Source: Phyto melanocephala
Taxonomy: Eukaryota; Arthropoda; Insecta; Diptera; Rhinophoridae
DNA length: 64,000 nucleotides
Reading direction: 5' to 3'
Assembly: GCA_941918925.1 (NCBI GenBank)
Contig: OW799234.1
Span: 67,389,043 to 67,453,042, forward strand
The notes under the pieces are model-generated. The model searched no databases. It saw nothing but the letters and a program-made list of their open reading frames with translations, and had not been told where the DNA came from. Within the stretch, counting starts at the first letter, position 1, and every line of letters begins with the position of its first letter. This document shows, in pieces, positions 12,288 to 62,299 of this stretch. The position numbers were made by a program, and so were the translations under genes.

Positions 12288-12935
12288 TTAACATTTGAAA
12301 ATGATTTCGGGCATATGGGCACCGCGGCTGTTCTTGACGAAGCGCATTCTGGACGTCCAATTTTGGGCCACTTTTTCGAGCACTGCTGGCCGTATGTCAC
12401 GAATAACACGAACAATGCTGGCCTCCAAGGCGTCAATTGTTGCTGGTTTATCAGCATAAACCAGTGACTTCACGTAGCCCCACAGGAAATAATCGAGAGG
12501 TGTCAAATCGCACGACCTTGGAGGCCAATTGACAGGTCTATTTCTCGAAATCAACTTATCGCCAAATTTTGATTTCAATAAGTCGATGGTTGCGTTCGCC
12601 GTATGGCACGTAGCGCCATCCTGTTGAAACCACATCTCCTCCGGATCAATGTCATCCTTATTTTCAAACAAAAAATCATTGATCATGGTGCGGTAACGAT
12701 CTCCATTGACCGTAACGCGAGCTCCGGCCTCATTTTTGAAGAAATAAGGTCCGATGATGCCACCAGCGTGAAAACCGCACCAAACGGTGCATTTTTCTGG
12801 ATGTAATGGAGTCTGTAGGGTCTCTTGTGGATTGGTCTCGCTCCATATGCGGCAATTTTGCTTATTAACAAACCCGTTAAGCCAAAAATGCTCCTCATCG
12901 CTGAACACAATTTTGCGATAAAATTGGACGTCCAG
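12288..12935 (-). pseudogene. mariner-family transposase, catalytic part only
   Basis: The frame encodes most of a mariner-like DDE/D catalytic domain: IVFSDEEHFWLNGFVNKQNC (first Asp), MWFQQDGATCHTA (second Asp), SCDLTPLDYFLWGYVKS (third Asp), then the family C-terminus NWTSRMRFVKNSRGAHMPEI. By my count 36 residues separate the second and third aspartates. The open frame extends upstream to 12989, but those codons are antisense of the duplicated C-terminus and are an artefact. The N-terminal helix-turn-helix half is missing, so no active enzyme is expected although the frame is unbroken. Confidence 0.85.
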
Positions 12936-14019
12936 AATGCGCTTCGTCAAGAACAGCCGCGGTGCCCATATGCCCGAAATCATTTTCAAATGTTAATGTC
13001 ACGTATTGATCTTTCGAATAAAAAAAAATTTTGATTACAATTTAATTTTTTGTGTTATTTTTTACAATTTCAAGTTCTATCGGGCTTAAAAAAACACCCT
13101 TTATATGTATGTAATTGCATTGCGTTTTGCATTGGAAACCAGCAACAAAAATACTTTTATTTCTGAATATGAGTAAATGTAAAAAGTAACGCAGAAAAAC
13201 AATTGTTAAGCCCTTTGTTTATTACTTTTGTTTTAATTTTTTTATAAAACCTGCACTTCGCAAAGCAATAATAATATTTAATAATTAGAAAATGGATCAA
13301 AGAAAAATAACATTTTCGAACTCTAAGGTGTTTGAAATGTGGATAGCCGCTTCTAAAAATGAACGTTTTCATAAATTATGTTCGACAATATTTGATCAAA
13401 TAAATATTTCTGACGTTGAATCTGATTCTGATGAATAGTAGAGTAGAAGTTTGGTTTAACTCATAAATGTGCGACTTATTTATTATGAAATTGAATGAGC
13501 AGTCCTATTTTTACTTTAATTCCTTATTTTTTGTTGAAATTGAGTAATAAGAATTTAAACAAGTTTTTTCAATTCTGTTTTTTCTATTGTGTTACAAAAG
13601 TTAATAAAATTTTCAATTGTTGATAATTTATTTTGTTGCTTTTTTTTGGCTTTCTTGATCTCCCTCCTCTCAGTATTTTGTGTTCTAGCCCTGTACTATC
13701 ACCTTCATTCGGCGAATCATCTATAACATCACAATTCATTGGAAAAATATCGAAAATAAAGTAAAGAAGTAATTCTTACCTCATTGGCCCCTTAAAATAG
13801 GCCCTAAGGCTCTCAAGGACCCCTTGGGAGGTCTTAGCGGTCCTTGATCCTGTCAAAATTTTTCATGGACCCATTTTACACCAAATCCATCTATTTTAAA
13901 TTTAAAAATAATTTTTCCCGGCTAACTTGTATGGGGTAGCTCACTGTGCGGCGTGCAGTGAGGCCTACCACAGGGAACGTAACAGTTAATTAATTTTTGT
14001 TATTCTTCAGAACCATTGC

Positions 14020-22706: not shown

Positions 22707-23103
22707 CCTTATTGATGCGGTTTTAAATATTTTCATGTGAGCCACTAGTACACAGAATATAAAGCTGCCTTGGTGTCACTTATTTCAAACTCCGAGGTGT
22801 TGGTGCTGTTTAGACGTAGAAACTTGGTTTCCCGGTGCTGTATATATCCGGAGCAAAGTTACTAGTCTTAATTTAATTTTAATGCCATATCCGAGAAATT
22901 ATGTACCTTATTGATGCGGTTTTAAATATTTTCATGTGAGCCACTAGTACACAGAATATAAAGCTGCCTTGGTGTCACTTATTTCAAACTCCGAGGTGTT
23001 GGTGCTGTTTAGACGTAGAAACTTGGTTTCCCGGTGCTGTATATATCCGGAGCAAAGTTAAAAGTCTTAATTTAATTTTAATGCCATATCCGAGAAATTA
23101 TGA
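22707..23103. repeat. 199-bp tandem duplication
   Basis: Two consecutive copies of a 199-bp unit (22707-22905 and 22906-23103/4) starting CCTTATTGATGCGG. I see only a CT versus AA difference (near 22862 and 23060), so the duplication is recent. The unit has no open frame of note. Confidence 0.9.
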
Positions 23104-23689: not shown

Positions 23690-26480
23690 CTAAGATTCTA
23701 AGTTATTTACATTGTTTCTTACAAAATTTACACAATCTCTTTTAAAAATGAATTCATTTGTTTCATCTTTGGTATTATTTGGTAACGAGTTATATAATTG
23801 TAGTCCTTTATAGAAAAGTGAACGCTGCATCGCTGTCGTGTTTACTCGTTGCAGTCTAAAGTCTCTCGCATTTCTTAGCCCATATGGTTGCATATCTCTC
23901 ACATAATTAATTTGCTCACATAGATATTCTGGCGCCTATCCCATTTTCATCTTTTGTATAAAAAGTAAGGTATTTAATTCCAATCGTTGATTTATTTTTA
24001 ACCACATAAGGATATTTAACATTATCTCAATTGGAGTATAAATGTTACATTTCAAAATTGTTCTCATTGCTTTATTTTGTAATTTTTGTAGTCTTTCAAT
24101 TTGCGTTTTCGTACAACATGTATAAATTATTGTTGAACCAAATTCAAAATGTGGTTTAATAATCGTATTATATATATTAATTGCTGTTATTGTTGAAACA
24201 TTATTTCTAATTCTTTTAAAAAACCCAATTTTTTACCAATTTTTCGACAAATATAGTCCATGTGTTCTTTAAATTTAAGTTCTTTATCAATTATAAAACC
24301 AAGATATTTTATTTGTTCGACTTTTTCAATTACTTCGTTATTAATTATAAAGTCACTATTACTAGTCATGTTTATTTCTATTATTTTCGTTTTTGCTTCA
24401 TTTAATTTTAATTTGTTCATATTTAACCAAATAATTATATTGTTTATGTCCTGCATCATATTATTGTGACACTGTTCTTCATTAACTCCTTCTGTAAATA
24501 TTAAAGTATCATCCGCGTATAAAATTACTTCACTTTTTGTCAAAATGTTCGGCATATCATTTATGTAAATACTAAACAATAGTGCACCTAAGATTGATCC
24601 TTGCGGAACACCAAATTCATTTTCAATGGAATCAGATTGTACACCATTAACAGTTGTTTTTTGTTTTCTATTTGCTAAGTAGGATTTAAACCATTTAAGT
24701 TCTATATTCTGTATTCCGTACATATGAAGTTTTTTAAACATAATTTTTCTATCAATTGTCTCAAACGCTCTTTTAAAGTCCAAAAAAATTGCCATAATTT
24801 TTCTATTTTTTTCTATTTTTTTCCATCGATTTATGACATAATTTACTGCAGTTTCACATGAAAAATTTTTCATGTAACCAGACTGGTATTTTGATAACAA
24901 AGAATTTCTTTCTATATAGCTTTCCAATTGATCTTTCACAACCTTTTCCAGTATTTTTTCACAAGTTTTTAAAGTATTTATAGGACGGAATTCTTCACAC
25001 TTTTTTGTATTTGTCACTTTTTCAATAGGTATTATTATTGTTTCTTTCCAGTTTTCTGGGAATTCTCCATTTTTTAGCGATTTATTAATTATATTTAATA
25101 AAATATTTCCCGTTATGTTCCAATTGTCAATAATAATTTTATTTGATATTTTTGTATAATCTGGCTTATTGTTAAGTTGCTTTATTGTGTTTTTAAGTTC
25201 TAAGATTGTTATTGCACGAAATTTGAAATTATGACTAGTATTATTAATATTGTTTACGTATTGCACTTCTTCGATCGAGTCTCTTATTGCTGTTATACTA
25301 CTTACAAAATAATTATTAAATTGACTAGCTATTTGATTGTTTTCTTTATATTCTATTTGGTTAAATATCACAGTTTTTATCACAGATTGTTCTTTTTTAT
25401 CACTAAAGCTTTTATTTCCTTCCACATTTGTTTTTGATCTTTGGCATTGTTTATTTTATTGTTTATATAGTTATGTTTCGCATTTTCAATTTTTACTTTA
25501 TAAAGGTTTCTAACCGATCTATAGTTTGCCCATGCTTCAGTTGTGTTTTCAATCCTTGCTATTTGTTGTTTTAAAATTTTATCTTTTTTTAATAAGCGAA
25601 GTTCATTATTAAACCATTGATTCACATTATTTGTATTAGTAATTGTTCTTTTTATTGTAAATTTGTTTATTACCGCTTCGAGACAGTTATCTAACATATA
25701 TGCGTTTTCATTGACATCACCGTTTTCTTTATAATCTATTATTGCACTCAGATTTCTATTAAAGTTATTTTTATTATATTTGAATATTTTATGGGTTTCT
25801 ATTGTTGTATCTTTCTGAAAATTCATTTCACATTCAATATTTATATATAGAGACTCGTGATCAGCTATGTTATTGTTATTAATTTCTACGGTTACTTTAT
25901 GGCTATTTGTTAACACATAATCAATTAAAGTATTAGTATCATTTGTTATTCGCGTAAAACTATTAACGATTTGTTTTAAACCATGATCATTTAAATTGTT
26001 TTCTATTCTGTTTTTATAGCAAATATTTTCAATCCAATCTATGTTAAAGTCTCCACAAATTATAATATCACAGTAGCTTTCACAAATTATTTCTAACATT
26101 TTTTCAAATATATCACAAAATTCTGATTTCTTGCAACTCGGTGATCTGTATACTGCTACAATTATCATACGAATACTATCATATTCAGCAGTGCAAACCA
26201 AAATCCAGTATTTATAATCTTCAAATTTTTCCAATATTTTATTCACCTTCCATGTTTTTTTGTAATAAATTATAACGCCTCCTGTTTTTGTAGAATTAGA
26301 TAAACATACTATGTGCCCATAATCTTGTAGCATAATTTCACTTTCATTTACTTTATTTGTTAAATGTGTTTCTGACAATATAATAAACTCTAGATTTTCT
26401 GATGCCGCAATTACTTCTATTTGACTGAAGTTATTAGTTAATCCTTGTACATTTGTATAAAGTGCGCGTAAATTCTGTGA
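23690..26480 (-). pseudogene. LINE ORF2: endonuclease and reverse transcriptase
   Basis: The endonuclease starts LRALYTNVQGLTN and continues with ILSETHLTN (catalytic Glu), GGVIIYYKK, VYRSPSC, CGDFNIDWIE (catalytic Asp/Asn), TLIDYVLTN and IADHESLY (catalytic Asp-His). A frame change at about 25400 leads into the reverse transcriptase: ENWKETIIIPI, EEFRPINTLKTCEKILEKVV, QSGYMKNFSCETAV, MAIFLDFKRAFETIDR, FGVPQGSILGALLFSIYIND and VILYADDTLIF (the YADD catalytic box). After 24187 a second frame change leads to YNTIIKPHFEFGSTI and a C-terminus with LFYKGLQLYNSLPN. At least two shifts and one stop; otherwise well preserved. Plus-strand frames here are shadows. Confidence 0.9.
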
Positions 26481-26504
26481 TTGTGTACCTAAATTCTGTG
26501 ATTG

Positions 26505-27287: not shown

Positions 27288-28154
27288 ATGGGTGATTGAA
27301 GTAGAGATACTGTTTTTTAATAGCTTTTTTTTTGACAGATCACGTGTGAATCGTGTCATGCTGTCATGTTATTTCTGTTTAGTATTGTTTGGTATTTCAT
27401 AATGGAAAGACTTACGTCTGAACAACGTTTACAAATCGTTCAATTTTATTACGAAAATTCTCGTTCTGTGAGGAATGTGTTTCGTGCACTTCGCTCAATT
27501 TATCAGGCAAATTTTGTTCAGCGATGAGGCCCATTTCTGCTGCATTTGGGACAAAGAGCAACCTGAAGAGATTCAATAACTGCCACTTCATCCAGAAAAA
27601 ACAAAGGTTTGATGAAGTTTGGGAGCCGGTATGCTGGTGCGAACGTAACCGTCAATGGCGATCGTTATCGTGCCATGATAACCGACTATTTGATGCCTGA
27701 AATTGATGCTCGTGATCTCGGTGACATTTGGTTTTAGCAAGACAGTGCCACTTCCCACACATCGCATCAATCAATGGATTTATTGAGAGAACACTTCGGT
27801 GTACGCAGTGATATCACACTAAGATCGTGTGATATCACACCATTAGACCTTTATCCTGTGGGGATATGTAAAGTTTATGCAGACAAACCCGCTTCGATTC
27901 AGTCCTTAGAGAAAAACATCACGCGTGTCATTCGCCAGTTACCAGTCGAAATGCTCGAACGAGTCAACGAAAATTGGACTCTTCGAATGGACCATCTGCG
28001 ACGTAGCAACGGCCAACATTTGATAGACATAATCTTTAAAAAAGAAATGCCAAAGAATGTTCTTTCAATTGATAATAAACATTCCCCATTAAATTTGAAT
28101 TTTCTGTGCTTTTTTTCTTTAAAAAAGGAGGGAACCTTAAAATGGATCACGCCG
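27288..28154 (+). mobile_element. mariner relic
   Basis: Starts ATGGGTGATTG after TA (27286-27287) and ends near a matching inverted GGCGTGATCC before TA at 28155. The transposase begins at 27402 (MERLTSEQRLQIVQFYYENS, the usual mariner N-terminus). An internal deletion near 27505 fuses it to the catalytic part, which reads VNGDRYRAMITDYL, QDSATSHTSHQSMDLL and RSCDITPLDLYPVGI, ending at about 28054. Stops include one in place of the Gln before QDSA. Confidence 0.85.
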
Positions 28155-28156
28155 TA

Positions 28157-28579
28157 TTTATGATGAATGCCCAGCAAAGAAAGACATGTAAAAAAAAAAG
28201 TGAATGCATAAGTTCAACCCATGGCGAAGTAATTCAATTTAATTATAATTTATATTAATAAAATTCACTTCATTCCAACAAGTGCATAGAACGCATTTGT
28301 AGTTGATGGAAAGAAACCCATGTTTGTTTGTTTACATGAATTGTATGCATGTGCATGTATTTTAAAGCACATCATAAATGGCTAACAATTATGGATTTGG
28401 AGAAGGCATTCTTTATGCCTCCTCTGGCACTTATCAGTTAGAAGTCAAGAAAAATGTTATTAGCATTGAAAAAATAAAATACTAAAAAAGTATCTACATA
28501 CTAACAAAATGTATACTAATGACATGTCAAATCAAATGTACACAAATATGAAATATGTATGCACTTAAACTAAAAAAAC
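28157..28579. other. AT-rich non-coding stretch
   Basis: No feature recognised between the mariner and the family B palindrome. Confidence 0.4.
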
Positions 28580-31290: not shown

Positions 31291-31496
31291 TGTTATGTTT
31301 CTTTATACTCACGTTGTGATATAACTATAGAAACAATCTTAATATTTGAATAGTCTTGTAATTCAATCTTTATTGACTCTCTAGTGCAAATATCAAACTT
31401 AGAATGAATAAATAAAGATAAATGCAATTATACCGTTACACAGACTACCAAGTCACCACAGGGTAATACCGACTTCATTCTTTGGCATTGCCAACA
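31291..31496 (-). repeat. Gypsy 3' LTR
   Basis: On the minus strand it starts TGTTGGCAATGCC and ends ATAACA. It differs from the other LTR at one base by eye (plus-strand 'gtgatataac' versus 'gtgatttaac'), implying recent insertion. The pol reading frame stops inside it at 31475. Confidence 0.95.
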
Positions 31497-32332
31497 TCTC
31501 CCTTTGTTTTAGATATGTAATACGGGGCCCAAAATGGAGGCTTCCGATTTCTGCTGGATCTTCTTAATATTAAACTGGGGTTTGCAGAAACGTTGGACTC
31601 ATGAGCAACAGTAGAACTCAGTTTTGGTGGATTCATTTGAGGTAGTTGGTTTGAAGTATACGGCTGTTGTTCACTAAATTGAGGTTGTGCTGAAGGTTTA
31701 ACTGGAATGCATGACGGTGATTCAATAGGTTGGTGGTTTTCTGAAATGTTATTGAAATTATTTTGTAGTTCTAAATCCTGTTGGGAAGTTTCCATTACTT
31801 CGGGTACATTTATGTCCTCTATAGAATTATAAGATGTTGGCTGTAACTGAAAACAATCCAAAAAATCAGATAATTGTGACGTTTTTGATTCAGAATATTT
31901 AGATTCAGAAAAATCTGGTCTTAGTTGGTTAGCATGACATTTAATAAGACGAAAATTTATATTATTATTAATTTTAACCTCGTACATGACTTTGCCAATT
32001 TTCTTCACGATTATGCCATGCGACCAATTCATTTGATTCCTCTTATACACTTTGGCTAAAACTTTTTGCCCAACATCATAAGTTCTTTCTTTAGCTCCAT
32101 ATTGATTATTGAATTGGGATTCCATTTTTCGGTCACGAATGGGTATGTCCTTTTTTGGTTTTCTTAGTAGGTCAAGATTTATTCTTAGTTTTCTCCCTAC
32201 GAACAATTCAGCTGGAGTTTTTCCCGTTGTTTTATTTGGTGAGGATCGATAACACATAAGGAACGTATTTAGATTTTCTTTTGCTGTTGCTGAACCTTCC
32301 AGTTTTTTCAATGCTCGTTTAAGTGTATCCAC
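31475..32332 (-). pseudogene. Gypsy pol: integrase C-terminal part (after the frameshift)
   Basis: This frame continues the integrase: upstream of its first Met the translation has APYHPQSNGQAERFV with the catalytic Glu, then DTLKRALKKLEG, the SPNKTTGKTPAELFVGR segment typical of Gypsy integrases, and a C-terminal segment with WSHGIIVKKIGKVMYEV that may be the chromatin-targeting or GPY/F-like module. A Ser/Pro/Gln-rich tail follows and the stop lies within the 3' LTR. It is separated from the main frame by a one-base shift at about 32405. Confidence 0.9.
31497..31510 (-). other. Polypurine tract
   Basis: On the minus strand AAAACAAAGGGAGA lies directly before the 3' LTR, the expected plus-strand priming site for reverse transcription. 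Confidence 0.8.
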
Positions 32333-32400
32333 AAACCTTTCAGCTTGCCCATTCGATTGTGGGTGGTATGGCGCTGTAAATATGTGTTGAATCCCGTTTT

Positions 32401-35400
32401 CTAAACAAAAGTGGTAAACATATGGCTTGAAAATTGTGTGCCATTATCACTCACAATCAATTCTGGATTTCCAAACGTAGTTGTAAAATCCTTAAGGCAC
32501 TCAATGATAATAGATGATGAAATTGACTTAATCTGATATATTTGAGGCCATTTGGAATATGCATCTACCATAATAAAGTAGTAAAAATTATCCACTGGTC
32601 CAGCTATATCTATATGTATCCGTTGCATTGGTCGATTTGCCATTGGCCAAGAGTGCAATGTAGTTTTTTGTAAACTTTTTGCTACTGATGAACATTTTGA
32701 ACAGTTCTGAACATATTTTTTTATGTCGTCATCTATGAATGGCCAGTACACGTAACTTCTTGCTAACATTTTTGTTCGCTCAATGCCATCGTGACTTTTG
32801 TGTAATTCTTTCAGAGTTTTGTTTCTGAAACATTTAGGTATAACGATTCTATCACCATACATCAAACAATTACTAACAACGGTCAAATTATCTTTTCGAG
32901 AAAAATAACATTTTAAATATGGATCATTTGTTTTAGGCCACTTACCAACTTTTAAATATTTTATAATGTTTTGAAGCTCACCATCTTCTTCTGTAGCGGC
33001 TTGAATCATATTAAAAGTTATGGGTAAAGCTTTCATATTGTCTTCAATCACCAACTTTATATCTTTCTCTAATTGGACACAGGATACTACCATATCTTCC
33101 TTAGATATTTGAATGTTGTTAATCAATCGTGATAAAATATCAGCAGCACCAAAATTATTCGTTGACACATATTGTAAGTCAAAATCATATGACATTAATG
33201 TCAATGCCCAACGTTGTAGACGATTTGCAGAGTGTGCCGAAATTCCTTGTTTACTTGAAAAAATAGCCAATAATGGCTTGTGATCAGTCTGAAGGATAAA
33301 TCTTCTTCCATACAAAAATTTATGGAATTTCACAACAGCAAAAACTAAAGCGAGCGCCTCCTTTTCGATTTGAGAATAATTTTTTTCTGCTGGTGTAAGA
33401 GCTCTCGAGCAGTGATATATAGCTTTTTCAGTGCCATCAGGGAAAATATGACAAATATATGCCCCTAGACCGACATTTGAAGCATCTGCAGCCACTTTGA
33501 TTTGAAGTCGCGGGTCATAATGCGTTAGCAGCAAATCCGAACATAAGAGTTGTTTAAAACGTTGAAAACTTTTTTGACATTGATGCGACCAATTCCACTT
33601 CACATTTTTCTTTAAGAGTTTGTCTAAAGGGTCTCTTAATTTTCGCATATCTGGCAGAAATTTCCCATAATAATTAACTGCTCCTAAATACGACCGTAAT
33701 TGACTAATATTTGTGGGTGGCGGCAAATCGTGAATTTGCTTAATTTTGTTTTTATCTGGAGATATGCCATTACTATCGATGTGATACCCAAGATAAGTAC
33801 ACGACGTTTTAAAAAACTGACATTTTTCAAAATTTACTGTCATATTATACATTTTCAATCTTCCTAAAACTAGACTTACAATTTTTTCGTTTTGCTCACG
33901 GTTTTGTGTTGCAATGACTACATCATCCAAGTAAGGGTAAGCACATTCAATTCCAGAAAGTATGGTTTGAATGGCCTGCTGGAATGCACCAGGTGCAGAT
34001 TTCACTCCCTGAGCTAAACGATTAAATGTATAAAGTCCACGGTGAGTATTAATGACCAATAACTTTTTAGTTTCGTCGTCAACTTCCAATTGCATATAGG
34101 CATTGTTTAAATCTATAATTGAAAATGATGAACAGTTGTTGAAATTTACAAATATATCATCTGGTAGTGGTAACGGAAAATTGTGTGGCTCAAGTTGAGC
34201 GTTGAGTCCTGTTGAATAGTCACCACAGATTCTAAGTTTACCAGATGATTTTTTTACCACAACAATAGGGGCTGCCCAATCTGAGTAATTTGTTTGCGTG
34301 ATAATGCCTTCCCGTTCTAGTGTATCGAGGGTTTCGTCCAGCGATTGTTTTACAGCGTAGGCCACTGGCCGCTTAGGACGGAATATTGGAACAGCATTTT
34401 GCTTTAATGGAAGATGTATTTTAAAATTTTTGACGTGTCCAATTTCTTCCCTGAAAACGGCTGGGAATTGTTTACGTAAGTCCATTGGTGTTAGTGAACC
34501 TTTGATATTTATTTTGTTGCACGATGTATATGAATCGACCGATTTATTCCATAAATTAAATTTGTCGATAAGATCAGATCCAAAAAGATTTAAATATGGA
34601 ATAGATGAAACTAAAATGTCACAAATAATATCGGTGTTTTTGATAGAAACCATTGCTTCAAATTCTCCCAATATATGTATGCTGTTTGTTGAAGCATCAC
34701 GAGGTTTAACCTTTGTTGTGTGTAATGAAGGCTTACCGATTTTTATCCATGTTTGCTGTGAAATAATTGTAACATCCGATCCAGTGTCATGTTGTAATTT
34801 AACATTGATGCTGTTAATGCGTATGGTTACATATCTTCTATTCTTGGTTAAAATTTTACTTGAATGCACGCTTTTAATATACCTATTTTTGTTAAATTTA
34901 AATTGTGGTTTAATTTTATTTCTTTCAGGAAAACACGAGCAAAACCCTTCTTTATGGCCTATTCTATTACACTGACTACATTTATGATTTGTATATTCGC
35001 AGTCTCGTACAAAGTGCATTTGACCACATTGCCAGCATGGACGTTTTGGCATTTGAATTGATGTGTTTTCTGTAAATTTTCCAGATTTAATTGCGTTAAT
35101 ATTTGTAGGATTAATTTCCTGAACCATGACGTCACGCTTTAAACTTTCAACACGCTCAACTTCTGCTACCAGTTTGTCTATTGTGATTGGTGAAGTATCA
35201 GTTTCACCTTCAAGCAAGGTTAAAAGCCGCGCTTTTATTTCTCTATCCTTTTCATTCTTTAAACCGTTAACAAAAATTAAGCATTTGAAGGTATTTGCAG
35301 TGCATTTGTTTAACAAAAAATTTTCGCAATGGCGATTAACAATGGCGGCATAACTTACAATGTCATCCATCTCGCCTCTTATATTTTGCATACATTTTAC

Positions 35401-35865
35401 TCGTAAACTAAATAAACTTTCTTTTCTGTCAAACAGTTTTTTTAAAATTTCCACAGTTTCAACAAAAGTAACGTCACGAGGTTTTCTGGGAAGTATGTAA
35501 TCCTTGTATTTATTAAACACCGCCGTACTTACTTTTCGCAACAATAACCTAACCTTTGATTGATCATCCAGGTCTTGCGCTTCGGTTTCAAAATTATCCT
35601 CATATCTGTCATACCACGTTGAAAATATTTGACCATCTTCTGGTTCATATGAGAACTCACGAATATTTTTGGATATTATATCCATTAAGGCCTCTGGTGC
35701 TGTGGATGAACTAGATGCTGGTACAGACGAATTAGATGCAGGTGTGGAGGTACTGTTTTGTGAGATGTTTATAAGCATTTCCATCAACCTTTGTTGCTTG
35801 TCCATAGACTCTTGCTGGCGTACTAAAATTTCACCCACGACATTTTCTAAGGACCTCGTTGCCAT
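32401..35865 (-). pseudogene. Gypsy gag-pol polyprotein, broken at the integrase
   Basis: I start it at the ATG at 35865 (MATRSLENVV); an upstream extension to 35871 would use GTG and is unlikely. Domains in order: gag (1 to about 270), two zinc knuckles CWQCGQMHFVRDC and CSQCNRIGHKEGFC (about 277-310), aspartic protease with HDTGSDVTI (about 360), reverse transcriptase with LRICGDYSTGLNAQ and the YLDDVV catalytic box (about 645), RNase H from AADASNVGLGAY to TDHKPLLAIF (about 795-875), integrase His/Cys zinc domain ending NCSKC (about 1020-1060), then catalytic Asp in HIDIAG and in VSDNGTQF. The frame ends seven codons later because a T run is one base short. Everything else is intact. Plus-strand frames such as 34430-34975 are shadows. 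Confidence 0.95.
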
Positions 35866-35881
35866 TTTCACCTCGTCGCCA
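35866..35881 (-). other. tRNA primer-binding site
   Basis: Two bases after the 5' LTR the minus strand reads TGGCGACGAGGTGAAA. A TGG start is expected for pairing with a tRNA CCA end. I could not assign the tRNA. Confidence 0.6.
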
Positions 35882-35883
35882 AA

Positions 35884-36089
35884 TGTTATGTTTCTTTATA
35901 CTCACGTTGTGATTTAACTATAGAAACAATCTTAATATTTGAATAGTCTTGTAATTCAATCTTTATTGACTCTCTAGTGCAAATATCAAACTTAGAATGA
36001 ATAAATAAAGATAAATGCAATTATACCGTTACACAGACTACCAAGTCACCACAGGGTAATACCGACTTCATTCTTTGGCATTGCCAACA
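35884..36089 (-). repeat. Gypsy 5' LTR
   Basis: 206 bp, one mismatch to the LTR at 31291-31496. On the minus strand it would hold the promoter and contains AATAAAG (polyadenylation-like). Confidence 0.95.
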
Positions 36090-39873: not shown

Positions 39874-40164
39874 AAAAAAACAAATTGGAGTTAGTAATAA
39901 ACACTAAGCTAATGATGTCCTAAATTCAGTAATTTTTCTTAAAAACTTTGTCTACCTACTTAACTGGTGGCTAGAGCAGGACAAAAATAGTGATAAAATG
40001 AAAGATAATAACAAACAAAAGAAAAAGGGTTGCTGTTGGGTAAACTTAAATCTAACTCATTGTGGTAAAAATATATAAAAAAGGGAAAACTCAAGTAGTT
40101 ACCGAATTCAATTAACTTAAATCCCAGGATTTAAATAGATGATATTTACAACCAACATGTAACC

Positions 40165-40235
40165 ACCGATCAAAGAGTGCTGATGATGAAATCGTAGCTG
40201 GTTTCGAAAATGCATTCCACTCGGCTAGTTTTGGT
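40165..40235 (+). ncRNA. Type I hammerhead ribozyme motif, copy 1
   Basis: In order: ACCGA (outer stem I), GAGTG (inner stem I, 40175-40179), core CTGATGA (40180-40186), one extra T, stem II GAAATC with loop GTAGCT and GGTTTC, core GAAA, a palindromic stem III covering AATGCATT (40209-40216), predicted cleavage after C40217, CACTC closing inner stem I, a 3' internal-loop strand, and TTGGT closing outer stem I. All invariant core bases are present. The palindromic short stem III would favour dimers, as in ribozymes of Penelope-like elements and retrozymes. The extra T before stem II departs from the textbook core. Sequence outside the ribozyme is not shared with the other copies. Confidence 0.7.
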
Positions 40236-40650
40236 AAAAAATATAATTTTTCAGATTATTCTTTCATTTATCACAATTAATAAAAAAAATTCTTTGTAAC
40301 AATAAGAATGTTAAGAATGTTGTTACAATTAAAAATGTCTGTAAAAACGCAATCGACTAATAATAAAAAAAAATTATTTTCTTTTATGCCTACAACATAT
40401 TTGATATTTTCTTCTTCTTTATTTTCATTGGGGCCCCAATTTGGGGATATACCACAGAAATATTCTTGACATAAATAAAAACGATTACCTGGCTTAATTA
40501 AAATTGCCATCATATTGCTCATATTCCAAATGAAAGTGTCTCTGATATTATAATTTCTAATATATGGAATGAAAATATTGAATACGACAGCACAGGAATA
40601 AACAAGTTTAAATCAGAAGGTAAAAAAGATGCATGATAAGGTAAAAAAAT
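40236..40650. other. AT-rich non-coding stretch
   Basis: No feature recognised; the frame at 40277-40522 has no family resemblance. Confidence 0.4.
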
Positions 40651-45420: not shown

Positions 45421-47095
45421 TATTACAAGCTATTGGGCTTCCAATTCTGGATTGGTTTGATCAATAGAACTCATTGCGACACTCAGTTCTATATGTGGTG
45501 AAATCCTTTATCTTTAAGTATATGTTTCTACGGTCCCATTAAGAAATATTTTAGTTTAATGGGCAAAAAAATAAAACCGCAAACACGCCCTTATTAAAAC
45601 CCCTTTAATGAAAATTTGATTTTTTTATTTAAAACATATTTGACAATTTTTAATAAAATTTTTTTATTTGCTTATGTATTTTATTCACATATTAAAAAAA
45701 ATGTGTGACTAATACAATGTTTTACCTCACCAACAATTTAAATTGTTCATGGCATTCGACCAACACTGTGTATTGTTTTTGTTTAATATTTTTTTGTTGT
45801 TTTGCTAACCATCATGAATTTATTTAAAAATAGTTTTGTAAAATGTATTCTTGTTTTAAGTTTAAATATTTCACATGAACATGTTTTAATCGACATCCAG
45901 TGAAAATAATACACTCTTTTCATGTTATTTTTTAATGTAAAAACTTTACACAAACAATTGTTTTGTTATTTGTACAATGTTGTGATATGATACGTGTAAA
46001 TTTAAAAATTTTTTGAAAGGTGTTGTTGATTACAAATTTTTTTTTCCTTTTTTTGTAAAGAAATATTATTTTAAAATTCAAATAATGTTTTTAAATTAAT
46101 TCCAAAATTTAAAAACAATTTTTGTTGTAATAAAAATTTTAAATTTTTAAATTACTTTTAAAGAAAGCCTTTAAATGTCACTGCTTTTGACATCTCTTGC
46201 CTAACACTGCACCATTTTTTTGGCCAAAAGTAAAAATTTGAATTTTTGCAAAGTTTAATTGTTTTGCTTTAATATAATAAAAATTATAACAATGTAAACA
46301 TAGCTTCTTAAATTTTTCAAACAAATTTTATTTCTATTACTTTAACAGTTGATTACGATTTCTAAAGCAAAGAGCCGTTATATACGACCATTTCTTGTCA
46401 TACATTTCTGAGAGTGATTGTACTGAGATCAAAGGAACAAAATTTTGTAGAAAACTCTCAAACAGACGAAAAAAATTCCGAAAGCGACGATGAATAAATT
46501 GAGAGTGGTGGTATTTTAAACCCATGTAAGTTACATTTAGTTGATGGTTTGGAATTCGAAAATCAAAATGTTCAATAAAATCCTTCTTAAACATGACTTC
46601 GTTTGTTACTTCATTAAATTGTTAAAATTAATTTCTACTGGTATATTCGAAAGGTAAGTGTACACTCGAAAAAATTAAAAAAAAGAAACAGTTTAGAAAA
46701 CCAGATTATTTATCAAAGATCTGAAGAAAACTTCAATGCGGGAACCTATAACTTGTAACCCCTTCTTAGAAGTAATTATTTGTTAATTTTTTAATTAAAT
46801 TTACATATGTTTATTCTTTCGGCCACTCCCTCTCTCTTAAGTGTTCACCGAAAGTCAAATGCAAAAAATCGTTCAAATCGGCCCACCCGTTTGGCTGTTT
46901 TTAATTTTGCCAAAAAAAGGTGTAAAATTTCCTATAGTGCACTGACTGGATGTATTTCAATTTTGTGTTTTTCCTTTGTTTAGTGTACGTTTTCGCAAAT
47001 CACTCTATTCTGGCTTAAGTTAAGTTTATTTTTAATAAACTTTCTAAAGCACTTTTAAATAAAACTAAATCGTAATCATTTAAAAATATTTAAAA
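45421..47095. other. AT-rich non-coding stretch
   Basis: No gene recognised. The minus-strand frame at 46337-46594 has no family signature. Both strands are dominated by A/T runs. Confidence 0.45.
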
Positions 47096-47099
47096 AATT

Positions 47100-47160
47100 T
47101 GACGAGTGGAATGCATTTACAAAACCAACTACAATTTTATAATCAGCAGTCTTTGTAGGC
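47100..47160 (-). ncRNA. Decayed hammerhead ribozyme motif, copy 4
   Basis: On the minus strand the order matches the intact copies, but GAGTG is GACTG, the core is CTGATTA instead of CTGATGA, and GAAA is GTAA. AATGCATT, the cleavage triplet context and CACTC remain. Core changes should abolish cleavage. Confidence 0.6.
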
Positions 47161-47338
47161 ATACTCATAAGCAATATGAAAGTATTCTTTATGTTACAAC
47201 TTAGTGAAATAAGAAAATGTGAAGCATAGCATGTATTTCTTCATGTTCATATTCTTTTATATTCGTAATACATTTTTGTTATGCTTTCTATATCCATCAT
47301 TAGGCTGGCAGTTGTACTTTGTGTTTTATTTATAAGTA

Positions 47339-53118: not shown

Positions 53119-53707
53119 CCCTACAGATAATATTGGACTACGTGGTCCATTTTAGCTAAATGGACTACTTACAACATGGTCCTATGTTAAGCAGTCATGG
53201 ACCATATCATTTTTAACTAAGAGATTGTAGTTAAACAATAGTTATGATATTTACACACAACAACTGTAGTTCTGATCAAAAAGAGTGCTGATGATGAAAC
53301 CGTAGCTGGTTTCGAAAATGCATTCCACTCAGCTAGTATCGGATGATTAATTTTTCCTTTATATTCTGTCGTTATCGCTTTGAACTTATAGCCTAAAATT
53401 TAAATATAATACAAATAGAAAAGTTCAAAAAATGTAATATTAAAAGAAGTACGACAAGTGTTCGTGTTCTAACGATTACATACATTGTTGTCAAAACGTG
53501 TATAATGGTCGTGTAGGTGCTTCGTCGAGTAGTGGCAAAGAGTAGTTTTGAGACTACTCCGATGGGTTATAAGGTCCAGCCCTGGGACATCGTAATGTTA
53601 AATCGACCATGTTTTCTCCATACATTTTGGTGATCTTTGGATTAGTCCTAGTCCATTGCAGAGTACACTTTACATGCTTGTATGGACTAGTCGCGTTATC
53701 TGCAGGG
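53119..53707. mobile_element. MITE (CCCTGCAGATAA ends), enlarged by a ribozyme-bearing insert
   Basis: Ends are CCCTACAGATAATATTGG and, inverted, CCCTGCAGATAACGCGAC. The same element occurs as a 280-bp copy at 57859-58138. Comparison shows about 250 extra bp here, from roughly 53232 to 53488, which include the hammerhead motif at 53272-53342. The exact junctions and any target duplication of the insert are unclear. Confidence 0.6.
53272..53342 (+). ncRNA. Type I hammerhead ribozyme motif, copy 2
   Basis: Outer stem I CTGAT with ATCGG, inner stem I GAGTG (53283-53287) with CACTC (53326-53330), core CTGATGA (53288-53294), one extra T, stem II GAAACC/GGTTTC with loop GTAGCT, core GAAA, palindromic AATGCATT, predicted cleavage after C53325. 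Compared with copy 1 the stem II pair U-G has become C-G. Confidence 0.72.
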
Positions 53708-56080: not shown

Positions 56081-56228
56081 GACGTAGAACTGAAACACAT
56101 TTACTTCTTAAATTTTAATGGGAATCATTTTTATTTTGGCTTAAGTTCATTTATTCTTTTATTTAATTTTATAATTCAAATTAAATTAATTGCAACCATT
56201 TTTAGGAATATTCTTTCTAAAATTATTT

Positions 56229-56296
56229 CCGATATTAGCCGAGTGGAATGCATTTTCGAAATCAGCTACGATTTCATCATCAGCACTCTTTATCGG
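56229..56296 (-). ncRNA. Type I hammerhead ribozyme motif, copy 3
   Basis: On the minus strand: CCGATA and TATCGG form a perfect 6-bp outer stem I; GAGTG (56288-56284) pairs with CACTC (56245-56241); core CTGATGA (56283-56277); one extra T; stem II GAAATC/GATTTC fully Watson-Crick; GAAA; AATGCATT; cleavage predicted between 56246 and 56245. This is the best-paired of the copies. Confidence 0.75.
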
Positions 56297-56299
56297 TAT

Positions 56300-56898
56300 A
56301 CTACTATGTAATTTAAAATTCCTATTTCAAGAATTTATTATTCAGTGTCCAGCACATAGGTGGACTTATATAAATGAAAATGTAAATACAACCTTGCTTT
56401 CAATAATTCCAGCCAAAGGATGTATATTGAAGGCGTAACGAAAATGTATTACGAATATAAAAGAATATGAACATGTTGAATAAAGAATTGTCATTTGAAA
56501 GGTGAAGTAAAAATTCAACAAATTTGAAATTTAAAACTGAGATTCACTAATTCAAATTTCATTCAATTGTAACATAAATAAAGAAGAAAAAAAAGAACTG
56601 TGCAAAAATCAAAATGATTCCCATTATGTATGGTCTGCCAAAACTTTGTTTAAAAACTTCTAAAATTTTATTTTTCTCAACATAGAGTGTATTTTGAAAA
56701 TGTCGATCTCTAAAAAAATCGCTTTATTTATATTTTTAATTATATTTAGTTTTTGCATTAAAATATAAAATAAAATAAACAAAAAACAAATTAATAAAAT
56801 CAAAATAATTTTTAATATTGTTATTTTTTCCCCGATTTGGTTACATTTTTAAGAACATTTGGTTGTAGATTTTTTTTGGTTGTGGCAACGCTGCCTTT
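56300..56898. other. AT-rich non-coding stretch
   Basis: A block at 56441-56480 (reverse complement of 'catgttcatattcttttat' and onward) also occurs at 47245-47280 beside the decayed ribozyme copy, so the two loci share a second short repeat. Confidence 0.4.
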
Positions 56899-60093: not shown

Positions 60094-62299
60094 TTTTATT
60101 TATTTATTTATTTATTTATTTGATTAAGTCTATGGACATGTATCCTTACAGACTATTATATAAAATTTAATTTAAACATATACATACAAAACATTTAATT
60201 ATTCAAAAACAATATTATATTACGTTTAATAACATTAACATTTACAGAAAAATCGATTAAATGATACATTTCATTAAAATTTTCACATAATTTCCTAAAT
60301 GGATCAGCACAAGCATAATTTGTGTGGGAAAATGGAAGATACAAAGGTATAAAGTTACGGGTTGTACGACGTGGAATATTAAAATTAATGTTACTCAAAA
60401 GAAAATCAGAAAGAATATCACCATTTATTAAATTTATCAAAAAAGACACACTAAGCATAGATCTACGGCTTTTCAAAGTAGGCAATTTGATTAAAGCTAG
60501 CCTGGTTTCGTATGGCGGTAGGTTCATAAGATAGCCTCCAAAAGATCTTCTTAGACAAAACAGAAGAAATTGTTTCTGCACAGATTCGATACGATCAACA
60601 TGGACATTACATTTGGGGTCCCAAACAACCGATCCATACTCCAATATTGGCCTTACTAAAGATATATATAACTGTTTAGTAATATCTGGATCGGAAAATT
60701 CTTTTGACCATCGTTTTATATACGAAAGCACTCCACGCGCTTTGTTAACTATCATGGTTATATGTTTGCGGAAATCTAATTTATGATCAAGTAAAATTCC
60801 AAGATCCATAAATTCATCAACCGATTCAAGGTAAATTCCGTTTAACGTATAATTAACTGGAGAATAGCAATTTCGGTAGAAGCACATATATTTGCATTTT
60901 TTTATATTTAACTCCATCAGGTTAATTTTGCACCACTTATTGAATCGATCCAAATCTTGTTGTAGGTAAACTTGATCATCAGGTACCTTATAGCTTAGAA
61001 AAATTTTTACATCGTCAGCATACAAAAGGATATTACAGAGTCTTATTACAGCTGGTAGATCATTAATAAACATGGTAAAGAAGAGTGGACCTAGGTGACT
61101 CCCTTGAGGAACTCCAGAATTAACTTTAATTTTCTTGGACATAGTGTTCTTAAAACATACGTTTTGTGTTCTACCAGAGAGATACGTTTTTATCCAATTG
61201 CAAGTACGTTCAGTAAAACCCATTGATTTTAGCTTAAAAAGAAGGAGGTCATGGTTGACCTTGTCGAATGCTTTGCTGAAGTCTGTATATATAACATCAG
61301 TGCGTTGAGTACTAGTAAATCCTTTACCTATCAATGTAGTTAATTGCAAAATATTTGTCATTGTTGAGCAACCTTTCCTGAAACCATGCTGAGTCGGAGA
61401 CAACAATGATGACACCTCATAAGAAAGGAAATTAGATAAGCATTTTTCAAACAGTTTAGGTATGGCACTTAATTTTGCAATACCTCTGTAGTTTATAATA
61501 TTTGATTTATTCCCTGATTTAAATAAGGGAATAATATACGATTCCTTCCAAAATTGGGGAAAGTACCCATATTTTATTGACGCATTAAAGATAATTGATA
61601 AAGGAGCAGCTAAGGAATGTGCACAGTTTGTTAAAATACAAGATGGAACTCCATCGGGTCCACTGTAAACAGATGATTTTATACCTTTTATGGAGGTAAC
61701 AATGTCGGAAGTATTTATAAGGGAAAATGAAATTGACTGATGTTCAGCAATAGGATACGGATAAGTAATTGTAGAATCGTAAAGTTGATCAGAATATGTG
61801 GTTGCAAAAAAATCAGCAAACATATTACTAATAGTTGCATCATCAGTAGATTCTTCATTCAAGTATTTCATCACATTTGGGTAGCCAGAAGAATTTCTTT
61901 TAGAGTTTACGAACTTATAGAATGATTTTGGATCACGTCTAAAATTTAACTTCATTTTAGTAAGGTAATTAGAATATAATTTTGAGTTAAGTAGATTATA
62001 TTCAGCACGGGCAACACAGTATTTACCATAATCGAGCGTAGTACCAGATGTTTTATATTTTTTATATTTTTTGCTACTTCCAATGACAATACTATAAAAG
62101 TATCTCGAACAGCTGGGTTTATTAAGCATAAGATGCAATGTTAAACAGTTCAATAAACAATTAAATAAATGAGTATAAGCTTATATAAGAGTAATGAAAT
62201 ATTCTATAATTTTTTTGTAACTAATAAATTAATAATTAAAAGGTTAAAAAGATTTTTAAATACATGAATGTTTTTTATATACACAATTTGGTTTAATGT
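60094..62299 (-). mobile_element. 5'-truncated LINE with long reverse transcriptase frame
   Basis: 2206 bp on the minus strand, flanked by a perfect 10-bp duplication AAAAAGTGTA (60084-60093, 62300-62309), with an (AAAT)n tail adjoining the left flank (to about 60120). The insertion interrupts a GTAACGTCCGTAACG site flank of the host transposon. The 5' part with ORF1 and the endonuclease is missing; the remaining ORF2 frame is unbroken. Confidence 0.9.
60195..62153 (-). pseudogene. LINE ORF2 remainder: reverse transcriptase (open, N-terminally truncated)
   Basis: A 652-codon frame lacking the endonuclease. From the N-terminus: a linker with DPKSFYKFVNSKR and FADFFATTYSDQL, then RT boxes SGPDGVPSCILTNC, FPQFWKESYIIPLFKSG, NYRGIAKLSAIPKLFEKCL, QHGFRKGCSTMTNIL, DVIYTDFSKAFDKVNHDLL, SGVPQGSHLGPLFFTMFIND and ILLYADDVKIF (YADD catalytic pair), followed by the thumb region (WCKINLMELNIKKC, LGILLDHKLDFRKH) and a C-terminal region with YISLVRPILEYGSVVWDPKC. 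This order is typical of jockey/CR1-type LINEs. The frame has no internal stop, so the insertion is young. The Met at 62153 is simply the first one available, not a real start. Confidence 0.9.

Follow-up and report, generated by a model that had tools for sequence, protein, structure and literature searches.

Hammerhead-like motifs of Phyto melanocephala lie in a non-coding retrozyme probably mobilised by Penelope-like elements of the same genome

A 64,000-nucleotide stretch of the Phyto melanocephala genome (C2:67389043-67453042, hereafter the window) contains motifs that resemble type I hammerhead ribozymes, which raises the question of what kind of element carries them and what copies that element. 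In this study, we show that the window motif is a sample of a far larger family than first described. The copies are very probably a non-autonomous hammerhead retrozyme that is mobilised by the autonomous Penelope-like elements (PLEs) of the same genome.

Three intact copies lie in the window where, and on the strands on which, the original prediction had placed them (Table 1), and all three contain the core CTGATGA, a stem II, GAAA, the palindrome AATGCATT and a CACTC that pairs with GAGTG; a fourth, decayed copy had been overlooked. Stem I is formed by GAGTG/CACTC and a longer outer part and is followed by the core, one extra T, stem II (GAAAYC/GRTTTC with the loop GTAGCT) and then GAAA. Stem III has two pairs only, closing TGCA inside the palindrome, and the residue at the predicted cleavage site is a C directly before CACTC. 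The type I hammerhead core CUGANGA ... GAAA ... NUH is therefore present together with its cleavage site, but the core is not joined directly to stem II, there being an extra U in all three copies, as had been noted as a caution. A viroid hammerhead, which de la Pena and Flores are said to have found in 2001 to tolerate an extra nucleotide adjoining the core, is alike in having one such nucleotide between core and stem II. The varying pair of stem II is U-G, C-G and U-A in copies 1, 2 and 3, and the outer part of stem I pairs in each of them, with G-U wobbles in two, much as described at the outset. Within the window alone, a loose core pattern was found three times and 8 of 100 shuffles reached as many, which is not significant, and the Rfam scans that had been proposed as a check gave no hammerhead match for the window motifs.

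Table 1. Hammerhead-like motifs and their elements in the window (bit scores refer to covariance model R1, itself derived from the copies listed)
Feature	Position	Strand	Remarks
Subfamily C element, single arm	39956..40314	+	unit positions 309 to 96 of the 574-nt unit
Hammerhead-like ribozyme, subfamily C	40165..40235	+	101.1 bits
Predicted cleavage, subfamily C ribozyme	between 40217 and 40218	+	
Fourth ribozyme copy, decayed	47088..47163	-	69.5 bits; within A-like element 47006-47308
Subfamily B element, extent common to second B copy (L035)	53237..53440	+	
Hammerhead-like ribozyme, subfamily B	53272..53342	+	97.9 bits
Predicted cleavage, subfamily B ribozyme	between 53325 and 53326	+	before CACTC
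Tail stem 5' strand GAACTT, subfamily B copy	53382..53387	+	
Tail stem 3' strand AAGTTC, subfamily B copy	53421..53426	+	within tail
Minus arm, head-to-head subfamily A insertion	56108..56327	-	unit 463 to 140; end in short-tail zone
Hammerhead-like ribozyme, subfamily A	56229..56296	-	101.6 bits
Predicted cleavage, subfamily A ribozyme	between 56246 and 56245	-	
Plus arm, same subfamily A insertion	56326..56580	+	unit 210 to 467; without ribozyme

Across 22 distinct sequences, 93.9% of 396 hammerhead cells were paired, compared with 20-52% in slid-partner controls; the alignment (A1) omits the 5'-truncated copies L034:5012-5087 and L040:4941-5016 as well as identical or near-identical copies. 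The varying pair of stem II (U-G in nine rows, C-G in seven, U-A in six) was broken in none of the 22, and the outer pair at columns 5-79 was A-U in six, U-A in six, C-G in two and unpaired in eight. The covariation claimed for the stems is thus real but modest, in that pairs changed on both sides showed no excess over shuffles (277 of 500 reached the observed count). Folding of single sequences had a weak advantage over shuffles (z -1.08, -0.62 and -2.24). RNAalifold chose a competing fold, GAGUGC/GCAUUC with CYGA/UCRG, in which 97.1% of cells are paired and columns 7-66 are C-G in 16 rows, U-A in five, U-G in one and broken in none of the 22, and its energy is below that of the hammerhead-stem fold in all three window copies. 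These figures would suit a conserved hairpin without catalytic function in place of a working hammerhead, a reading that we consider quite unlikely, as the core residues are conserved as in hammerheads, the exchange at columns 7-66 may be a single event, and four PLE stretches described below have hammerhead cores with different stem sequences. Moreover, the ensemble probability of hammerhead stem I is at least 0.46 in 13 of 23 rows, but 0.33 in one and at most 0.07 in nine, the window C copy (0.02) among them. We read the motif as a hammerhead in competition with a hairpin, its cleavage being inferred; both folds may be used. As for the original assignment to type I hammerheads, sequence and pairing fit it and the PLE stretches carry kindred motifs, whereas Rfam gives no match and RNAalifold prefers the rival hairpin.

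In the genome (739,753,867 bases in nine contigs), 9,684 places (4,872 + 4,812) lie within two mismatches of the core 21-mer TTTCGAAAATGCATTCCACTC, and the reversed control of this 21-mer was found at none. Exact stem II variants number 1,984 for U-A, 1,596 for U-G and 18 for the mispaired C-A; related copies are not independent events, so that these counts describe families and not changes. Twenty regions of 10 kb were read around copies, all in the first 4.7 Mb of contig C1, and they cover 39 of 100 listed places (of the 9,684), which skews the sampling towards exact matches of the 21-mer. In viral contigs, a 17-mer had a single match (L052), in which no hammerhead core was seen by eye.

The repeat period in the 20 regions is mostly 544-563 nt (subfamily A) or, at one locus, 574 nt (subfamily C). 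The A unit (544 nt, 24.4% GC) and the C unit (574 nt, 28.4% GC) have longest stop-free frames of 56 and 101 aa and are non-coding, lacking the open frame for reverse transcriptase and GIY-YIG endonuclease of an autonomous PLE. The ribozyme is common to subfamilies A-E. Subfamilies A and C are about 71% alike over an alignment that starts at stem I and runs on for 191-200 nt after the cleavage site, and the similarity of B and C extends upstream too, so that similarity goes beyond the ribozyme edges at which it had been thought to stop. Nor do we find a family defined only by its ribozyme, which sits in PLE-like units of 544-574 nt with tails, target-site duplications and downstream motifs. The DNA upstream of the window B element is unlike that of other B copies, and this copy is long-ended because the 3' strand of the tail stem discussed below lies inside its tail. 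No PLE protein was found in the 264 kb first read around ribozyme-element copies. L036, suspected to be an autonomous element because two copies lie 3.9 kb apart, showed no PLE frame; at L036:4690-5098 a subfamily B copy lies between two frames resembling parts of one LINE reverse transcriptase.

The units occur singly, in tandem and as head-to-head arrays. For each of the U-A and U-G patterns, the 100 places at the head of the listing were examined for neighbours within 1.5 kb; among these places, 34 of 51 and 72 of 84 clusters, respectively, were single copies, and opposite-strand neighbours were head-to-head without exception (14/14 + 8/8 = 22/22). Ten head-to-head inserts were measured (L032, L034, L040, L041, L043, L044, L045, L049, L050 and the window copy at 56.1-56.6 kb, whose ribozyme had been predicted correctly without its being recognised as one arm of a double). 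Eight of the ten have one short-ended and one long-ended arm, and in L032 and the window copy a short end is combined with an arm that lacks a tail. The 3' end zones, counted from the cleavage site, lie at 138-146 and 182-188 nt in A and at 116-137 and 169-172 nt in C, the short end being at 137-146 nt in six of the eight inserts and the long ends at 169-188 nt; for the short ends of L045 and L041 strict alignment stops at 116 and 125 and BLAST at 137 and 129 (numbering shifted by one). Common flanks of 13, 14, 16, 16, 16, 12 and 9 nt, which represent target-site duplications, were found in seven of the ten inserts and were reached by at most 6 of 500 random pairs, the L045 flank being A-rich; retrozyme duplications, when present, are expected to exceed 4 bp. 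Such flanks are absent at L050, L032 and the window head-to-head copy, as well as in all three single-arm copies tested, and no clear duplication was found at the window C element. The 5' ends of the arms meet with overlaps of 2-5 nt or gaps of 1-41 nt (a 5'-to-5' junction with a 2-nt overlap in the window A insertion). The ribozyme elements therefore display the signature of PLE mobilisation, namely head-to-head arrays, a one-arm tail and a short duplication.

A ribozyme-bearing satellite DNA that spreads through unequal crossing-over and not by reverse transcription would also consist of tandem units that are almost identical inside one array, as they are here, and hammerhead satellites reportedly exist in cave crickets. 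Newts have them as well (PMC6155905). However, with clusters that are mostly single copies, target-site duplications, a fixed head-to-head polarity and tail ends common to the inserts, we regard a satellite origin as very improbable.

The same genome contains candidates for the mobilising enzyme that we favour. A PLE query was checked against proteins (2,497 matches; nearly all of the 120 listed with PF26215, and many of these also with a reverse transcriptase domain). In the genome, 121 of 1,463 candidates were scored (E 1e-38 to 1e-31); frames of at least 820 aa were present in 25 of the 121, one with an internal stop, and opposite-strand neighbours within 10 kb were head-to-head in 16 of 16 cases. 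The GIY-YIG Pfam model matches a few PLE proteins, and it often misses PLE-type endonucleases, since the PLE query itself fails it; its single match at L051 was set aside as an SLX1-like frame beside a MED31-like frame (names read from the letters). In all four stretches read before the PLE frame, parsing by eye revealed a minimal hammerhead with one extra core nucleotide, composed of CTGAAGA or CTGATGA, the extra nucleotide, stem II and GAAATAT(T/C), with stem III absent. The extra nucleotide is A in three stretches and U in one, and U in the window copies; these hammerheads received no score from the covariance model built from the ribozyme copies or from Rfam. In one PLE array, on C6, the ends were read: one is about 76 nt and the other about 112 nt beyond the predicted hammerhead cut, the two sides share a flank of 14 nt, and the short/long asymmetry is like that of the ribozyme elements. 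This array comprises three minus and three plus PLE matches with a period of about 2,850 bp (C6:9104106-9121928); another head-to-head PLE array, at C5:51663048-51683997, comprises two minus and four plus matches with a period of about 3,050 bp.

At the nucleotide level, units A and C resemble the PLE region weakly overall (matched by 2 of 300 shuffles at best and 289 of 300 at worst), so that the kinship between element and PLE rests on layout, motif order and a stem in the tail. This tail stem, downstream of the hammerhead in 9 of 12 sequences, reads GATCT(T)/AAGATC in two PLEs, GACCTT/AAGGTC in two further PLEs and GAACT(T)/AAGTTC in A, B, C and D; the one position that varies is taken by three Watson-Crick pairs, U-A and C-G among the PLEs and A-U among the ribozyme elements. 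The 3' strand is absent in B_L048 and D_L039, and both strands are absent in the window C copy. A full 6-of-6 complement was present in 6 of 11 sequences, compared with a mean of 0.33 and a maximum of 3 in 500 shuffles; in L053, C and D_L037 it is 5 of 6, a value that, taken singly, does not exceed shuffles. The stem appeared in the single-sequence minimum fold of five of the nine sequences that have it.

It seems that mobilisation would proceed as follows. The PLE reverse transcriptase/endonuclease would bind the element RNA through the ribozyme-to-tail segment and cut AT-rich DNA, and each of the two target strands would then prime reverse transcription at either of two internal start sites. 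Both cDNAs would extend towards the 5' end of the RNA and be joined 5'-to-5', often at microhomology. The role of the ribozyme would be to release single units from multimeric transcripts, and it might do so better when dimerised through the palindrome AATGCATT; dimer energy was better than twice the monomer minimum in one of three copies only. PLE-associated minimal hammerheads with a short or missing stem III, of the kind treated by Lunse et al. in 2017, reportedly cleave as dimers; in like manner, AATGCATT could form an 8-bp shared stem III. Poseidon, a PLE of Anolis, cuts and extends both strands with a preference for AT-rich DNA and starts internally at two sites, which define a tail of 30-40 bp; the RNA that it uses is mostly unprocessed, and its hammerhead required protein (PMC11167929). 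Tail, AT-rich target and a hammerhead upstream of the start site are alike in our elements. Rotifer Penelope elements have head-to-head pLTRs, an optional 31-bp tail on one of them and duplications of 8-10 bp (PMC3846280), which resembles the layout, one-arm tail and short duplications found here. Unlike both of these PLEs, the present elements have no open reading frame, only the ribozyme and downstream motifs.

What serves as template bears on the origin of the arrays. L043 has seven minus and five plus ribozymes with near-identical units, the third unit from the centre carrying five additional A in both arms with few further differences, and in both arms of L044 the longest unit is the first one (557 and 563), followed by a second of 549 and 550. 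These mirrored lengths tentatively suggest that the template was a linear multimer and not a monomeric circle; as two arrays with mostly homopolymer changes, they are weakly consistent with a single linear multimer read twice or with arm-to-arm gene conversion. Mirrored lengths would also be expected if the head-to-head arms arose by self-priming (snap-back) of one cDNA, as proposed for rotifer Penelope (PMC3846280), and not by priming off both target strands; we find this unlikely, in that eight of ten inserts have their outer ends in two zones, one short and one long, at which a copied arm need not end. Rolling-circle reverse transcription of a monomeric circular RNA, the model set out for retrozymes in the literature (PMC7229834), would account for the near-identical units of L043. 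It is difficult to reconcile with length changes mirrored about the centre, but these come from two arrays only, are mostly homopolymers and could be mimicked by arm-to-arm gene conversion; we therefore leave this model appreciable weight while thinking it rather unlikely. On the mirrored unit lengths we tentatively favour a linear multimer as template. A bolder proposal, which we think doubtful as a whole, is that such animal retrozymes are PLE parasites copied from linear, uncleaved ribozyme multimers with both target strands priming. The conserved rival hairpin would then keep the ribozyme off until PLE protein or dimerisation switches it on, and both the ribozyme and circular RNA would consequently lie off the transposition path.

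The retrozyme kind is already known; the novelty lies in the arrays, in the additional nucleotide of the core and in the link to PLEs of the same genome. Cervera and de la Pena (2020, PMC7229834) describe animal retrozymes, name PLEs as a strong candidate for moving them and list insects among the hosts without detail. Like our elements, the metazoan non-LTR retrozymes of that paper form several subfamilies, number thousands of copies and consist of tandem units that are non-coding, low in GC and equipped with one type I hammerhead. The present units differ in length (544-574 nt compared with 150-450 bp), in the extra core nucleotide, in a very short stem III, and in their head-to-head arrays with PLE tails, the word 'inverted' being absent from that text. 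Among the published titles searched, with partial coverage, none reported a hammerhead element in Diptera or a retrozyme in insects like the present one. Here a hammerhead-only element and the PLEs of one genome agree in their layout and in having a tail, a duplication, the unusual core and a covarying stem, and the retrozyme-PLE link is thereby directly testable, which helps to answer who copies ribozyme elements in animals. Moreover, the arrays record the mode of PLE insertion, including the two primed strands, the two start sites and the length of the template.

The window contains other repeats. On the minus strand there are a LINE-type element with endonuclease/phosphatase and reverse transcriptase frames (24190-26504), LTR-retrotransposon-like frames with reverse transcriptase, RNase H and integrase domains (31478-35895), and a 661-aa reverse transcriptase frame that is LINE-like by eye (60198-62180). 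Frames that look by eye like mariner transposases lie at 12291-12992 (minus, without a Pfam match) and 27738-28163 (plus), and a 199-bp tandem repeat is present at 22707-23102 in two copies that are 98% alike.
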